DNA from: Calycina herbarum
Lineage: Eukaryota > Ascomycota > Leotiomycetes > Helotiales > Pezizellaceae
Direction of reading: 5' to 3'
Assembly: GCA_001414485.1 (NCBI GenBank)
Contig: LLEY01000061.1
Location: forward strand, 248,001 to 312,000
Length of the DNA stretch: 64,000 bases
The notes under the pieces are model-generated. The model made no database searches. It was not told the origin of the DNA and saw only the letters and a program-made list of their open reading frames with translations. This document shows, piece by piece, positions 1,147 through 62,960 of the stretch (within the stretch, counting starts at the first letter, position 1; every line of letters begins with the position of its first letter). A program made the translations under genes and the position numbers.

Positions 1147-3687
1147 AAAATCCAGCTTTCATCAAAGCCCACATCGCTGTATCCAGCTCCTTTGCTTCAT
1201 CTTCCTCTGCACCCTCCCCCAAATTCTCCGAGGCTATCTTTTTATTTGCGGGTTTTGATGCATCCCACCACTTCTCAAAAGGCAAGTAATCCGATTCACA
1301 GACCGTGGACGGAGGAGGTAGTGTTGCGTTTTGGAAGTAGGATTTTATTGCTGCTGCTGTGCAGCGGGAGGGTGTTGAGAGGGTTGTGTGCTTAGTTGTG
1401 TGTTAGATTTTTGGGGCTTTTGATTTTGGGGTTTGGGTTTTGATTGAAGGAGTGAGGGGAGGGGAGGGGAGGGGAGTTGAAGGGAGTGTTTTGGAAAAGG
1501 GAGGAAGTCAGTTTTGCCGTGGGAATGAACGAGGGGTGGGGACGGGAGTTGAGGGAAGCTACTGAGTCGTTCCTTCCCATCTTGCGAAAGAACAGCAACG
1601 AAGCAATTCTTGCCGCAAGCGTGCCGAGTTGGGAAGGAACGACCAAGGTCTCACGTCCCGACGAAATTCTTGACTTTCTCTACAAGAAGGGGAGATGATT
1701 ACGAGGACAAGAGGGAACGGAAGACGTACCCCATAAGCATCTTGCACCAGAATCTCTGAGCCTGAAAACCCAACCGCGTTTCTTTGCGCGGATTTTAGGG
1801 GTGTGACGTTATCGGCTGTGTTTGCTATAAACAGGATTGGTGTTGCGGTTCCGTTTGGGGCTTTGAAGGGTCCTGTTTATTTGTTTTGTCAGCATCTTCC
1901 TCCCATATCTTGCTTATACCAAAACCAATATTCAAGTTCAAAAAGGAGGAGGAAACATACCAGTGAACCTCCACTTAGCCTCAACCCCCCACCCAACACA
2001 TCCTAGCCTCATCTCCGCCATCGTACTCCCAACCATGGGACCAATCCCCATAAGCTCATCCACATACTCAGCATACATCTCCACACTCTCATGTACACCC
2101 CCATTATCAGAACACATAATTGCCAATGTGGCATCTGCACTTCCTTCCGTGTCATCGTCCTCGAACCTGTCTAACGCTGGTAATGGATTGGCTGTCGAGC
2201 ATTGGAAGGAATCTTGAGATATTGGGGGAATGAGTTCAAGATACGGCTCTCCATCTCCCTTCTCCAAAGCTGCTAAGATTTTTGCCAAGGTGGGAAAGAG
2301 AAGGATTGGTCGGTAGAGGGTACTGGTTATTAAGCGTTTGATGTCGGAGTATGTTATTATTGCTGGGGTGAGGGAGTTTTCGGTTCCGACTACCACAACG
2401 GGTTTCTTTCGCAAACTTTCTAACAAGTTGTCTAACCTCTGACGAATCTCCTCTTCGGAGGGAGAGAAAAACGCACAGCCTTCGGAACCAGCGAGGAAGC
2501 AGTAGTGGAAGAAAGCGGTTATTATCTTTTCTGTGTCGGTGATGAATGTTACACCCCTCGAAGAAGTGTATTCCTCAGCTTCGACATTACCATCGAGAAT
2601 CATTCTTCCAACCTTGTCGGGGTAGAGAGAGGCGAATGTTAGACCGAGATAAGTCCCGTAGCTGAAGCCCCAGTATTGGAGGGAAGGAAGGTGGAGTTGC
2701 GTCATTAGTTCGTACATGTCTCTTGCTGTAGAAGCCGTGGAAACATATGATAGGGGGCTTGGGTGTGTGTTTGAGATATTTTGAGAGGAGGATGTTGAGG
2801 TGAGAAGACATTGTTTTGAGAATGCTTTTGCGTGGGCATATGCGTCATGGAGAACTCCTGAGTGGGCGTCTAGGACTGGAAGGGAGAGGAGAGACCAGAG
2901 GAGGGAGGATTGAGGGGTTGGGAAGCAGGCTGCTTTTGGGGTTGAGTGTCCGACTGTTTCTCTTGTAAGTAATCCGAAGAAAATGAGGGGTTGAGGGACA
3001 TGCCTCCTCGTGGATCAAAAGATATGATATCCTGGTTTTACGTAAGTATTTTTCTCGTTTAGAAAGGGGGGAGTGGCTTACAAAGTTCTTTCCTGCTATA
3101 GCTTGGTAGTATCGTGCTAGGTTTTTGACGAACCAAATTCCGGATCCTCCTGGTCCACCTGTTTTTTGTTAGTGATAGGTTTGATTTCGTTTTGGAAGGG
3201 AGTAGATACCTGGGTTTATGAATAGACTCCCTTTGTATTCCTTTTTGCTTGTTGCGTTAAAACGGATAATTGCGATACTAGCTCGATGTTCGTCTGAAGG
3301 GTCTAACCAGTCTAGCGGGACCTAGTTTAATTAGCCTTACTCTAAATATCTCGAGCAAAAATAAGACGGGAAGAAACAAACATCAAGCATAGCACAATCA
3401 TAAGCCCCGTCATAACAACTATGCCACTTCAACTCCTTATCCGCTCTCGCCCTACTCCAAGTCCAGCCCTCTCTTCTCTCTTCATCAACCTCTCCACCAG
3501 TTAACAGAAGTTTACTCCAAGAATTCAAAAATAGAAACTTCGCGAATAGTAATCCAAGAAGTAATAAAATTATCTTCCGATATCGAATCCACTTCTTCTC
3601 ATGAGCTGCAACTTCATCTTGAAATATGGCTTCTGAACGGGGTATCCCTTCTAACGGTAGTAAATGTGTTTTCTCGCAGGATTCCAT
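1145..3687 (-). CDS. Membrane-anchored alpha/beta hydrolase, TAP-like C-terminal domain (S33-type)
   Basis: Seven exons on the - strand: 3687-3382, 3321-3210, 3158-3082, 3031-3004, 2953-1961, 1872-1730 and 1390-1145, joining in frame to about 634 aa. After a charged N-terminus there is one hydrophobic segment near residues 37-57 (IILLLLGLLFAKFLFL), suggesting a signal anchor. Family landmarks are the oxyanion-type NPGGPGGSG, the strand DIISFDPRGVGHSTP, the nucleophile elbow GFSYGTYLG (Ser), and the TAP-like end with PILFIANTADNVTP (Asp) and YGHTTLSTPSRC (His), so the triad looks complete. Relatives are secreted tripeptidyl or proline-type peptidases; the substrate here is unknown. Intron 2954-3003 starts with GC instead of GT, and intron 1391-1729 is unusually long (339 nt) and holds an inverted repeat. 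Introns 1-3 (50-60 nt) are canonical. Confidence 0.88.
1566..1643. repeat. Inverted repeat (14-bp perfect stem) inside a long intron
   Basis: GTCGTTCCTTCCCA (1566-1579) is matched by its exact reverse complement at 1630-1643. An inner pair, CTTGCG (1581-1586) and CGCAAG (1614-1619), extends the fold. It sits in the 339-nt intron of the hydrolase gene, which is six times longer than the other introns. It may be a small inserted element or an RNA hairpin. Confidence 0.75.
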
Positions 3688-6894: not shown

Positions 6895-8484
6895 TTAGCA
6901 ATGACGGGATTTCCATTCTGCCCAGTAATCCTTCAGAATCTGGTCCTTTGACTTCATATCTTCGATATTTGCCTCTTTTGGCCTGCGAGTTGTAAGCTTC
7001 AAGTCCAAGATCTTTTGAGGAAACCAAGTCGTTGGCCAGTCAGAGTGGGTACCCCTGGGCGTTTCGTACTTCCAGTGAGACTCATAGGATTGGTTATAGT
7101 TCTTGGAAAATTCTTCCAGTTCGCTTCGCACCTTGGTGATTCCGGCATTTCTTTCCTCCACGGACCACCCTTCCTGACTCACGCTTTCAAATTCGGGGTC
7201 GTGGAGCTCAATATCGATCTCAACTTCTTCTCCAGGATCCATCTTCTTCTTCTCTTCATTCCAATGGTATGCGTAATGATGCCTTTCGTCATAATAAAAT
7301 GGTGTTAGTTCTTTTACATTTTTGAAGAGAGCTAGTGTTGAGCCCGTTGTAATCAACCGTTTTTCTGCCGACCATAATTGCCATCCTTTGAACTTTCAGT
7401 CTTTCTTTGAGGGAAATACCAAGTAGTACCTCGTATTGGTGTGCTACCCGAATTTTATGAGGACGCTAAGTTTGCGAAAATGATGCATCATCCAATACCA
7501 GAATGTCGCGCTTGCTGTTGAGATAATTATTCCCTAAAGTACCGAGGGTTGGTAATGATACGCGGAAACGAGACGCAACATCAAACACTTCTCGGCATGT
7601 GAAGAGGATAGTTGGCAGTGCACAAGTCCTTACTATCCATGAACTCGTCTTATCTGTTTCACAAGAGCCTCGTCTTCGTATTCAATCTGGACCCAACCAT
7701 CATCACTAAGGAGTCTTTTTTTGTACCAAGTCCACCTAGAATTTCCTTCGATTGGGCCGCTAACGCCACAAAATAAACCCGGGCTGCCTGGCCCAGTTCC
7801 ATCAAACTGTATGCTATGCATACGTGGATACGTAGGGCTTGGGTTGAATCTTCCCCCAATGTAAGAAGTGAGTGATTTGAACGTTGCCATATCACTTCTC
7901 AGTTGCTCGTGCTCGCTGGGACTGAGTATGACCGTTCTTATTGATCTTTCATTAGGGTGAGTAGCTCCAATAGGAATATCCGACCGTACTCTATCGCCTA
8001 GAGTCCAAGGAACGGGCACGCTCTTTTCGTTAAGATAAACGTTCCGTGGTTCCAAATTATCAAGAGCAAACTCCCAGATATTCTCTCGTACTGCGGATGA
8101 TCTCGAACTCAGTATTGCCATTTCTAGAAGTGTGTCTGAGGATGAAGCAGAGTTGTAGGGGAGGAACTGGGTTTCTGAGGGGGAAATAGTGTTTTAATCA
8201 TCTTAAAACAACCTGAAAGAGGAAAAAGGAACTTGGGGAATACCTACTTTCCAAGGGAAATTCTCTAAACAAATGAAAATTTAGTTGACAACTTAGAAGA
8301 AGTGCTACTGGCTTCGTTCGATACCTCCTAGGTGAAGTTAATATGTGGTGAGGACCTGAGTATCTAGATGCTAGTTTCATACCTCTTTTTTGACGGAAGA
8401 GTCATTTTCGGTGTTGATACGGGGTGGTATCTCCATGACGGGAAGAGACTCTCCTTGTGGGATGGCAGTGGAGTTGGTAGACAT
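6895..8484 (-). pseudogene. Broken tandem paralogue of the 2EXR gene
   Basis: Alignment by eye to the intact neighbour shows exon 1 at 8484-8383 (MSTNSTAIPQGESLP versus MSPDPSTPQQEALP), intron 1 at 8328-8382, exon 2 at 8327-8248, an extra intron at 8091-8247, and exon 3 from 8090. Joining exons 2 and 3 restores FPLEIRENIWEFAL, the counterpart of FPTEIREMIWELAL. Lesions: a one-base shift in a T-run near 8265-8270, a one-base loss after IRRVHG near 7635, an in-frame TAG near 7470, and another frame change near 7360 before LALFKNVKEL. Homology continues to the stop at 6895. The decay looks moderate, so sequencing error alone is unlikely to explain all four. The extra intron is shared with the aldolase gene at 48.9 kb. 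Confidence 0.8.
8091..8247 (-). mobile_element. Introner-like element, copy 1 (157-nt intron in the 2EXR paralogue)
   Basis: On the - strand the segment begins GTAGGTATTC and ends CATCCGCAG. Removing it joins GGAAA to TACGAG and restores the conserved codons L-E-I-R-E. The intact tandem paralogue has no intron there. Shared blocks with the aldolase intron at 48897-49016 include GGTATTC, TTCAGGTTGTTTT, CTATTTCC, ATGGCAATACTGA and GAGATCATCCGC, in the same order. AGTA occurs at both junctions, a possible target duplication. It is in sense orientation relative to the host gene. Confidence 0.75.
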
Positions 8485-16966: not shown

Positions 16967-18333
16967 ATTGAAGGGGACGAGGGAGGGAGAAATTAGCATT
17001 TGAGGGGATGTTTGCATGGGAGTGGGAAGGAGGAAGGAGACACTTAGTGTCTGGTCTCCTGTTTGGATCGAAGGCTTTTTTTCCTTTCGGTTTCCTTGGA
17101 GTTTTAGGTTCTTCTGGGATGAGTTTTACTGGATTATGGAAGGCATCTTTTCATAGAGTAATAAATTATATATTCTTTGCTCTGGTGTACTTTATTCGCT
17201 AATTGTGATATTAACTAATTATGTTACTACTTAATAGTATTAAGTAATAAGTCCAGTAAATTCAACTATTGAATAATCTGTAGACAGAACTAATCAATGT
17301 TGTATCTGGTGAATAAAGCATACTATCTTGGGCAAGCACTTGGAGTGGATTCGCTTAACATTTTCACACGTGATGCGCAAGACAAAACCCTTGTCAGACA
17401 AACCATCACGATCTTTTTGTCTTACTCCATCACAGAGATCACGAGTCCCAACAGAGGCTGAGCCCACACCTCATGAAAATGGTGGGTGTCACAATCTGGT
17501 TTTGGTTCTCACTGGTTGGTCATGCGAAGGAGGATGCTGATACGTTGGATATGGCATTTTTTCTTTGTGTGACCCAGATGCCTCAGTGAAGTCCCTGATT
17601 CACTACTGAAGTTCGCACAAATTGGGGTTGTTCTGTTCCTTGATTCTTGGTTTTAGGCTTTTCTTGGGAATGTTGGGGAGGCAGTGATGCCAGGATGTCA
17701 GCCAGTGATGTTGGAGTTCAGCTTGGGGATGCTGATAAGGTATCGTGACCGTATTTACGAGGCGTTGATGTAATCCCTTTTCCAGTTTCCACATATTGGA
17801 GGCATGGTTCGCAGATGATGAGATCTCTTGTTCTGATATTTTGGGGCATTTTTTTACCTTTTTTCTCGAAGAATGCTGGGCGGCAGCGATTTCAGGTATT
17901 TGGGGAGGGGTCATAATACCTTGGGAGGGTCATGTACTTGCCTGAGATGTTGGAGTTCAGCTCGAGGGTGCTGATGGGGGGTCATGACCATATTTACGAG
18001 GCTTCGAAGTTGGTTTTCTTTTCTGAGGATGCAAAGGTCGTAATGCTGATCATTTCTCGAGAGGCTGGTGGAGGCGTTTGTGGGTGTTTGACAAAAAGAG
18101 GTGAATATCTTTTTTGATTTCCTCTTCTTTCACTTCGCGAATATTTGTCGATTTGATTTGCCTCTTTTTGAAATTACCCAATTTTGTTTGTGGTGGACTT
18201 CGATCGTTTTGCCACATATATTTTTCGATTCCCTGCTTCTGCATCTTTTTGTCTTTTAAGATAGACATAGGTATTGTCTGCCAACGCATTTGTCTTGAAA
18301 GTCAGGCGATCCACCAGCACAATACGAGGCAAG
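16967..18333. other. Intergenic, 1.37 kb, with a diverged duplication
   Basis: This lies between two + strand genes. It carries an AT-rich patch (17160-17290) and a diverged tandem duplication (listed separately). No long frame has family features. Confidence 0.5.
17690..18005. repeat. Diverged tandem duplication of about 85 bases
   Basis: The stretch 17700-17770 (GATGTTGGAGTTCAGCTTGG, then GGATGCTGATAAGG and CGTATTTACGAGGC) recurs at 17945-18003 (GATGTTGGAGTTCAGCTCGA, then GGTGCTGATGGGG and CATATTTACGAGGC). Flanking sequence upstream of each copy is also related, so the duplicated unit may be about 240 bases. Confidence 0.7.
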
Positions 18334-48333: not shown

Positions 48334-49427
48334 CTAATTCAAAAATTCTCCCTTGGTTTTCTTCAGCATATTAGTGTAGTATGGCTGAAAATTGAGCCAT
48401 CCTCTGTGCCTTGTTCCAATGCGTTGCTCCGTGAAAAATGCAGTCTCATGGTCAACCAATTTGGGCTGATTTCCTGTGCCAGCCGCCGCGGCATCAATCA
48501 TCAATTGTGCTCGACAGCACCTATCAAAGCACAAAAACCAATAGGCAGCCTCATCAATGGTCTCACCAACCGACAACAGGCCATGATTTTGGAGAATTGC
48601 GACCTTATCCTGCGGTCGCAGAACAGCAGCAATGGCCTTTCCCTCATCGGAAGAAAGCACAACTCCGCCATAGTCTGGATTGACAACATGCGTTCCGTAA
48701 AAACGCAAAGAGTCTTGCATGATAGGTGGAAGAGGCTTGCCGAAGACGCTGTAGGCTTTTCCAGCAATTGAGTGTGCATGACATACAGCGTTAATCTGGG
48801 GATGGGCTTTATGGATTTCGGAATGGATGGAAAAGCCAGCTGCGTTGATAGCATGATCCCCCACAATGACTTCCGCATCTTCGTTCACACAGACAACTAG
48901 CGGATGATCTCGGAGTCAGTATTGCCATTTTTGGAAGTATGTCTGAAGAGGAAATAGCGTCTTAATCCTCCTAAAAACAACCTGAAGGAGGAAGAGATAA
49001 CTCCGAGAATACCCACGATCGGAAACTGTGACGTCCTCGAAATGCATGCAATATCTATTTGTTTATTAGAAAACCAAACCACAACATCATTACAACGAAT
49101 CACTCACGGATTGATCCAAAAGTAATGGGGATTGATGGGGTCTCGTAGGCTCATGTGCCCAGCCACACCCTCATCGAAACCGTTGGCAGCAAAGACCCGG
49201 AAAGCACAAGCGAGGTGCTCTTTGCAGTATTTTTGTTCTTCTTCTTTGCTTTTGAATTTTGGGATATCTGGTACTGCACTTTCTCCGTTCTTTTTGACTG
49301 CACCAACGGCCATGGATTTCATGTCCGTACCTTTGGTGTTGAAGATGGCGGATTTGGCATCGAATGTTGCAGTTGCCGGGGCTTCCGCGGTCTTCTCGCC
49401 AGCTGTAGGTGTTGCTGATGGGGCCAT
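48334..49427 (-). CDS. Class II aldolase/adducin-domain protein
   Basis: Three exons, 49427-49108, 49054-49017 (38 nt) and 48896-48334, give 306 aa. The N-terminal ~70 residues are Ala/Thr- and Lys/Glu-rich. The domain then reads ACAFRVFAANGFDEGVAGHM and SLRDPINPHYFWINP, exon 2 supplies YCMHFEDVTVSD, and exon 3 gives LVCVNEDAEVIVGDHAINAA, VCHAHSIAGKAYSVFG (zinc His pair) and VAILQNHGLLSVG (third His). Fungal members may act on sugar-phosphate-like substrates, but function is mostly unknown. Intron 1 (49055-49107) is at the usual family position. Intron 2 (48897-49016) is related in sequence to an intron in the 2EXR paralogue at 8.1 kb. Confidence 0.9.
48897..49016 (-). mobile_element. Introner-like element, copy 2 (120-nt intron in the aldolase gene)
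   Basis: On - the intron starts GTGGGTATTC and ends CATCCGCTAG. Removing it joins GAT-C to TT-GTC, giving the conserved SDLVCVNED. It matches the 157-nt intron at 8091-8247 along its length, except for a gap of about 37 bases. Near its ends, TCTCGGAGT and ACTCCGAGA can pair (9 bp), and inside, TCCTCCT and AGGAGGA can pair (7 bp), so the RNA could fold with the splice sites drawn together. Confidence 0.75.
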
Positions 49428-61853: not shown

Positions 61854-62960
61854 TGTAACGAAACTTAAACGAACTAAACAAAGATAACTAAGTCTCGAAG
61901 GTTAGTATACAGGTAAGAAGTATAAATACACCGGGTTGTTCACTTAGAAGTAAACTCGTTACTTATATCAAAGATATTAAATAAGTTAATAAGATTAATA
62001 ACTAAAGTTAAGCACGAAGCTCCTATCTAATAGCAGACGTGCTAGTCTTATATAGGACTGTAGTCCTCCGTTCTAATCGCTCTAGTCGCTTGCTCTAATC
62101 GCTTTAGTCGACAGGCGACTTAAGCGACTTAGGCGACTAGGTTACGTAATGTCCCTTACTAAAAGAAATCCATAGATCGCTTAGCTAGTCTAATAATCCC
62201 TCTTCTATAAGAGTTTCCGATAATGCTTAACCTATTAGAGCACTGCCTAGTCTTTACTTATTATATACTTATATATAATTCGTAATACTATCCTCTTCTT
62301 AGCCTAGCATATCTCTACGCTTAAGTATAACCTAAGAAATACCGTCAGAAGGCTAGCAGCCTTCTCTTACTATAATGTTTTTAATAACACTATCTATAAA
62401 AGATAAACTAAAACAAAATCGTATTAATAACGCCTTCTATATCGATTAAGTAGGATCTGAAATATCCTCTTATACTCGCTATCTTACCTCTATATCCAGC
62501 TATTGATATATATCTATTACTAGGGGTAAGAAATGTTCTAAGTATACTAGGAAGAGTAAAACTTATAATATCGAGGAGTAAAATCGAATACCTTTAACTT
62601 TTAAGTAGGAATCTCTTAACACGTAGAAACGTCGTCTACGGGTCGAGGAAGAGACGGCTTATTAGACCTAAGAAAAGGCCTTTCGAGCCTAGTAGAAAGC
62701 AATATTAAAGGTTCTCTGTCTTCGAGCATAGCAACGTCTTCTTAACGAGCGAGAATAACAGATGCTTCGTCGTAGACTTAGTACCTTTTAGGAGCTAGAT
62801 AAGGCTAAGAAGAAGGAGGAAAAAGAAAAAGAAGAGAAGGAAAGAAGAGAGGAGGCCGCTAAGCTAGCCGCCTACTCTACCCCTACTACTTCCAACCCTG
62901 CTTTCGACCTAGGTCTCGATCCTAGTTTCCTCGAGGTCTTCTTTATTAATCACCTAATAT
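61854..62960 (+). mobile_element. Mixed transposon remnants (possible LTR, then transposase-like tail)
   Basis: 61854 starts TGTAACGAAAC, an LTR-like start, and continues less AT-rich than its surroundings. From about 62560 to 62960 a + strand frame (with TAG breaks) reads RLLNEREQQMLRRRLSTFQE (with Q from a stop), then a Lys/Glu-rich coil and LGLDPSFLEVFFI. This resembles the charged C-terminal tail of fungal pogo/Fot1-like transposases or related elements. The family call is weak. Confidence 0.45.

Follow-up and report, generated by a model that had tools for sequence, protein, structure and literature searches.

The window, a stretch of 64,000 nucleotides, carries two genes on its minus strand that are each interrupted by a copy of one and the same sequence (Table 1). 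W1, the shorter copy, is located in a gene for a class II aldolase, and W2 interrupts a gene for a 2EXR-like protein. An initial sequence-only reading had proposed that these two introns, which lie 41 kb apart in unrelated genes, represent a single element. This proposal was confirmed together with the coordinates and the lengths of 120 and 157 nt: all five sequence blocks that had been quoted and both ends are common to W1 and W2, and both copies are oriented in sense to their host genes. The alignment of W1 with W2 falls into two pieces, 75 nt at 79% and 54 nt at 87% identity, with E values near 1e-11 and 1e-13, computed against a local database of small size.

Upon removal of W1, the aldolase joint reads ...EDVTVSD|LVCVNED..., and the Pfam domain Aldolase_II crosses it with 155.5 bits. 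Also a Clonostachys protein crosses the W1 joint without a gap at 78% identity. Judged from this one gene only, the host protein is most similar to that of Hymenoscyphus fraxineus (94%), followed by Clonostachys (77%); Hymenoscyphus belongs to the Helotiaceae, Helotiales, Leotiomycetes (NCBI taxonomy), so that the genome is probably one of the Helotiales. The joint in the W2 host reads FPLE|IRENIWEFAL and is spanned by a 2EXR match of 22.0 bits, under the Pfam cut-off of 24.8, which is the single and weak indication for this putative joint, and a search with the W2 host protein found no named relative. The database open reading frame P0122 starts inside W2 and runs into the exon; it is a mechanical reading frame and uninformative on splicing. 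Elsewhere in the window, a stretch of 117 bases (61942-62058) is 93% identical to one in the sampled locus L048, and a direct repeat of 71 bases occurs at 17701-17771 and 17940-18010 (80%).

Table 1. Positions of W1, W2 and the parts of their host genes within the window.
Feature	Positions	Strand	Remarks
Introner copy W1 with internal shortening, 120 nt	48897..49016	-	intron 2 of class II aldolase gene, phase 1
W1 5' splice site GTGGGT	49011..49016	-	same hexamer in 56/66 copies
W1 near-terminal stem, 5' arm (TCTCGGAGT)	49000..49008	-	W1 fold (z -4.27) and family stem
W1 probable branch-point motif ACTGAC, branch A at 48916	48915..48920	-	family RCTRAY motif
W1 near-terminal stem, 3' arm (ACTCCGAGA)	48908..48916	-	almost wholly between branch point and acceptor
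W1 host exon 3 (class II aldolase/adducin family)	48337..48896	-	Pfam and paralogue search
W1 host exon 2, 38 nt	49017..49054	-	sequence reading; joint kept in P0001-P0003
W1 host ordinary intron 1, 53 nt, GTGAGT..TAG	49055..49107	-	single copy in genome; control
W1 host exon 1, begins at ATG	49108..49427	-	spliced peptide and paralogue search
Introner copy W2, 157 nt, phase 1	8091..8247	-	in gene for 2EXR-like protein
W2 5' splice site GTAGGT	8242..8247	-	same hexamer in 7/66 copies
W2 host exon 3' of intron	7633..8090	-	stop codon at 7630-7632

Within the genome (68.8 Mb, 379 contigs), the element occurs in about 200 copies. An 18-base pattern for the 5' end was found at 201 places with up to two mismatches, compared to 2 for the reversed pattern, and at 392 places (83 reversed) with up to three. 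The corresponding 20-base pattern for the 3' end (up to two mismatches) was found at 119 places and a 23-base pattern from the middle (up to three mismatches) at 90, the reversed patterns yielding none in both cases. As the pattern counts exceed those of the reversed controls, about 200 copies represent a fair lower figure. The exact 5' 18-mer occurs at 55 places in the 68.8-Mb genome versus 4 stretches in a prokaryote genome collection. Direct searches of the genome gave at least 66 matching pieces with W1 (40 of 113 candidates scored) and at least 40 matches with W2 (40 of 90 candidates scored); 34 of these 40 W2 matches start with base 1 of the intron, and every one of them extends to within 5 bases of its 3' end. 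The 53-nt ordinary intron of the aldolase gene, used as a control, matched only itself genome-wide. Among nine candidate proteins from other organisms that might read through the element, none had an E value of 0.01 or lower, and an exact match to the 21-base block of the 3' end was not found in viral contigs. The 5' pattern, with 201 places, is commoner than the 3' pattern with 119 and the middle one with 90; the patterns differ in length and permitted mismatches, and other subfamilies sharing the 5' end may exist.

From 60 loci and the window, 67 copies were obtained after merging of pieces. One copy on the plus strand (L030) was left out of the analyses of 66 copies and is included in counts of 67. 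The loci were chosen from the W1 search (20), from 5'-pattern matches (39, of which 38 were exact and one had one mismatch) and from the W2 search (one, L064), covering 54 of the 55 exact 5' places. Conservation of the 5' end is therefore partly a result of choice, since a 5' end with no more than one mismatch was the selection criterion for 39 of the 60 loci. As had been predicted for further copies that coincide with introns, among the about 200 places 65 of the 67 copies examined begin with GT and end with AG (64 of 66 without L030); one copy (L036.2) begins with GC. The family profile matched to the last base in 48 of 66 copies, all of which end with AG. In the other 18 the profile match stopped early and the 3' end was shifted to the YAG that followed, without success in one copy (L060.1), so that these 18 ends are partly chosen. 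Inside the element, the information per position is mostly 1-2 bits with the lowest value, 0.15, at position -8 from the 3' end; outside, it does not exceed 0.39 next to the donor and 0.20 next to the acceptor.

The first six bases are GTGGGT in 56 of 66 copies and GTAGGT in seven. A [D1,2] stwintron, considered on account of the similar stem, was rejected because bases 2-3 are then not GT; moreover, the base before the intron is a G in no more than 28 of 64 copies. Of 64 copies, 61 contain within their final 40 nt the motif RCTRAY (ACTGAC in W1), which we take to be the probable branch point, whereas W2 and two others lack it there; in 49 of the 61, 18 nt lie between the A of the motif and the intron end. 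When 56 close matches to the 3' pattern were compared with the 100 of the 201 5' places that were listed, at least 33 could be paired with a 5' end, and none had a partner on the opposite strand; 14 of the 33 partners are exactly 167 bases apart, and 23 of the 56 3' places are without a known partner. The element measures 146-168 nt in 53 of 66 copies. The median of 32 predicted regular introns was 54.5 nt, with a predictor that allowed 45-90 nt only.

Several irregular loci were observed. The copy in L045 (C157:310312-310672) spans 361 nt because of an interruption close to base 45, where about 200 bases of foreign sequence are inserted. Four loci (L035, L036, L059 and L060) hold two copies each on the same strand; those in L035 lie 97 bases apart, one being shortened to 70 nt, and L060 contains the apparent remains of a third copy. 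A second repeat of about 200 bases with the ends GTAAG..CTTAC occurs at L041:2193-2394, L044:830-1031 and L059:2-169 and 3036-3250, and is perhaps a small inverted-repeat transposon and not an intron.

Joining the flanks of the element restores reading frames with three-base periodicity. Frames of at least 50 codons were open on both sides in 36 of 65 copies at the true joint, in 31 and 33 copies when the 3' border was slid by 3 bases, and in 6-12 copies when it was slid by 1 or 2; with a threshold of 20 codons, the contrast was weak (53 versus 40-48). Frames of at least 15 codons on both sides were obtained for 59 of 66 introners versus 64% of random excisions from the same loci. Codon scores were higher for sense than for antisense in 56 of 66 copies, W1 being among the ten exceptions, and higher for the true joint than for both shifted joints in 46, leaving 20 in which they were not. 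Spliced peptides submitted to Pfam were, except for W1 and W2, chosen for long open frames; in 15 of these 20 a domain above the cut-off spans the joint, always on the sense strand of the element, three (W2 included) have a weaker domain across the joint, and two have none spanning it. According to these peptides, the host genes belong to many unrelated families. Seven of the 66 copies do not have a joined frame of 15 codons on both sides. These and five further copies were inspected by eye. In several of them a sense gene can be followed across the joint, and in others a sense reading frame lies upstream; among the twelve, not all of which were assignable, no antisense or intergenic copy was recognised. 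The copies mostly reside inside sense-oriented reading frames, the coding context of some being unclear.

Retention of the element would introduce an in-frame stop codon in 43 of the 50 copies with a trusted phase, and in 37 of the 50 the length is not a multiple of three; the copy in L044 would bring neither a stop nor a frame shift. We infer from these sequence features that each copy is probably spliced out of the mRNA. Phase 1 was found in 24 of 51 copies, a lean that is not convincing. The second reading frame of the element is free of stops in 21 of 53 copies of at least 140 nt, versus 2 and 10 for the other frames, and gene finders may read the element as an exon.

The ends of the element are imperfect inverted repeats with 15 pairs over the first 18 bases. 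In the resulting near-terminal stem, bases 1-6 pair with 160-165 and bases 9-19 with 147-157 (13 and 153 being mismatched), and most of the 3' arm is placed inside the gap between branch point and acceptor. The mean pair probability along the stem, averaged over 53 copies of at least 140 nt, was 0.41-0.92. The end-to-end duplex had an energy of -18.0 kcal/mol versus -10.4 for shuffled sequences (sd 3.2), and swapping the 3' ends between copies changed it little (-17.9). Within an alignment of 34 copies, 94.5% of the stem cells were paired versus 26-49% when the arms were slid, and no covariation beyond that of shuffles was detected in the stem. The unconstrained consensus fold of 50 copies was weak (-1.45, z -1.08). 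As there is no excess covariation and the consensus fold is weak, conservation of the stem may reflect its sequence and not selection for a structure. Individual folds had a mean z of -2.4 over 42 copies, with four, W2 among them, above 0. The 9-bp stem and inner hairpin that had been suggested earlier were recovered in the 120-nt W1 (z -4.27), but the 157-nt W2 is unstable on its own (z +1.25).

Neither 376 comparisons of offsets nor three tests for repeats revealed a target-site duplication; the highest z, 3.8, stems from an isolated pair of positions. Comparison of the exon-1 suffix with the exon-2 prefix gave a mean of 0.47 versus 0.43 for mismatched copies, that of the exon-1 suffix with the intron end 0.53 versus 0.52, and that of the intron start with the exon-2 start 0.20 in both cases. 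Relative to the flank composition, A(-3), T(-2), R(-1) and T(+1) were enriched (chi-square 20-38, 3 df); relative to the 32 predicted regular introns, only A at -1, T at -2 and T at +1 stood out, with p values of 0.017-0.032 that are uncorrected for seven tests. A specific target-site preference, weak by the latter comparison, is therefore not claimed. Between the loci, flanks of 500 bases produced nine partial matches, all of them touching L035, L036, L059 or L060. As the flank matches are confined to these four multi-copy loci, the copies do not share a larger common segment.

Matches to host proteins elsewhere in the genome bear on intron gain. A sugar-transporter peptide (L043) had 48 matches in the genome, two of which represent its own gene, broken at the introner; 40 of the other 46 run uninterrupted over residues 88-108, where the joint lies, 5 of them holding stop codons. 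The aldolase query identified three paralogous places, one of which covers residues 52-133 through the W1 joint at 43% identity, and two of which do not cover the joint. From paralogous matches at 25-45% identity, in which the sites appear unbroken, we infer that the introns were probably gained; the timing of their arrival is not dated thereby. Identity between copies had a median of 80%, and the best pair among 64 copies reached 97.0%, slightly under the 98-99% that passages of PMC4457414 quote for introner copies in two active species. In the copy tree, most branches had poor support, with 10 of 61 nodes at 0.9 or higher, and a cluster of short-branched copies was present. Near-identical copies, by which recent multiplication would be recognised, thus appear to exist in this family.

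Taken together, the family to which W1 and W2 belong is almost certainly an introner-like element. None of the outcomes that would have spoken against the earlier reading, namely a lack of further copies, a repeat unrelated to introns or similarity at the level of chance, was observed. That two introns merely resemble each other by chance is practically inconceivable in view of the genome counts against their controls and of the neighbouring ordinary intron, which is without a second copy. An ordinary dispersed repeat might instead have landed inside pre-existing introns, and other short dispersed repeats do occur in the sampled loci; however, the repeated unit is the whole intron, bounded by GT..AG in 65 of 67 copies with nothing left over, and paralogues are intronless at the site in the two genes examined, which renders this explanation highly improbable. 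To the same degree improbable is the spread of one intron through duplication of genes or segments or through gene conversion, without insertion. Conversion of introns between genes is a known process, but here the hosts come from many unrelated families and the 500-base flanks have no segment in common.

The element could also be a small non-autonomous, MITE-like DNA transposon with imperfect terminal inverted repeats that carry the splice signals and with a transposase provided in trans. Over some 18 bases, the two ends are imperfect inverted repeats of each other, and most introner families outside the ascomycetes show signs of DNA transposition according to parts of PMC9860276. However, a target-site duplication was absent in every form tested, and among the copies examined, some unclear and partly judged by eye, none was recognised as antisense or intergenic. 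As intergenic copies of a transposon would be neutral and visible, their lack among these copies counts against such an origin, which we regard as unlikely.

The observations as a whole are very probably best explained by a mobile spliceosomal intron unit. Taken by itself, propagation through an RNA route appears somewhat favoured, because no target-site duplications were found and the copies are in sense orientation wherever the host gene was recognisable. As selection alone could purge antisense copies from exons, the argument from orientation rests on the lack of intergenic copies, which was judged in the copies examined only. An RNA route of this sort is discussed in passages of PMC8469720. 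The sequence features consistent with such a unit are ends that coincide with the splice sites, the signals GTRGGT, RCTRAY and YAG, and the complementarity of both ends. In the proposed mechanism, a spliceosomal intron, most frequently of 145-168 nt, would multiply as a unit: the intron RNA released by splicing, as a lariat or after debranching, would have its ends held together by the near-terminal stem and would be inserted seamlessly into transcribed DNA, either by reverse splicing into an R-loop or by capture at a break. The inserted RNA would then be copied into DNA, and a formerly continuous exon would thereby be split in two by a new intron. This kind of element is already known and represents a known but uncommon way of intron gain.

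Introner-like elements of Dothideomycetes were reportedly described by van der Burgt in 2012. Passages of PMC4457414 name such elements for Fulvia fulva, Dothistroma septosporum, Zymoseptoria tritici and relatives. The family described here resembles them in consisting of repeated canonical introns in unrelated genes, with degenerate and less degenerate copies side by side, in its foldable ends and perhaps in a length above that of regular fungal introns; it differs in its host class, the Leotiomycetes as judged by one host protein. Also the AG/GY preference of the Dothideomycete elements, as given in parts of PMC8469720, is rare here, with AG preceding the intron in 5 of 64 copies and AG/GY occurring in 2 of 64.

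With the sister [D1,2] stwintrons and cropped sister introns of Xylariales, the element shares near-terminal inverted repeats that pair the ends (passages of PMC8469720 and PMC12403724). As in these stwintrons, the 3' arm occupies a gap of almost constant length from branch point to acceptor, the gaps in Xylariales being 14 or 19 nt in parts of PMC12403724, and integration is seamless without target duplication as far as those passages describe it. Unlike the Xylariales stwintrons in those passages, it is a single canonical intron that is not nested, and bases 2-3 are TG or TA, whereas an internal donor would require GT there. Its roughly 200 copies within a single genome compare to 23 sister stwintrons in one Hypoxylon genome and 288 over 14 species in the same partial accounts.

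Like the introners of algae, protists and animals covered in parts of PMC9860276, the element is an intron-generating repeat bounded by splice sites; many of those introners have target-site duplications, whereas none was found here. The same parts of PMC9860276 present ascomycete introner families as outliers without duplications or inverted repeats, a contrast that the imperfect inverted ends found here soften. In the open-access literature searched, introners are paired with Leotiomycetes in PMC3510045 and with Helotiales in PMC11889510, and no paper linking them to Hymenoscyphus was found. The supplements of the survey PMC9860276 may list Helotiales genomes.

The origin of new spliceosomal introns is an old open question. 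The Helotiales and Xylariales families have the same layout, with the 5' arm overlapping the donor or just behind it and the 3' arm in a near-constant gap of about 14-19 nt from branch point to acceptor, and this common pairing of the ends provides a testable mechanism. As a tentative and rather doubtful generalisation, the near-terminal stem might be the mobility determinant of ascomycete introners in general, with the spliced RNA closing end to end and inserting in this form. If true, one common RNA-based mechanism of intron gain would operate in unrelated sequences, and not many domesticated DNA transposons. Hymenoscyphus fraxineus, the ash-dieback fungus, has been sequenced from many isolates. 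With about two hundred copies in a genome within or close to that genus, some pairs of which are 97% identical, intron gain would become directly observable as presence or absence between isolates.
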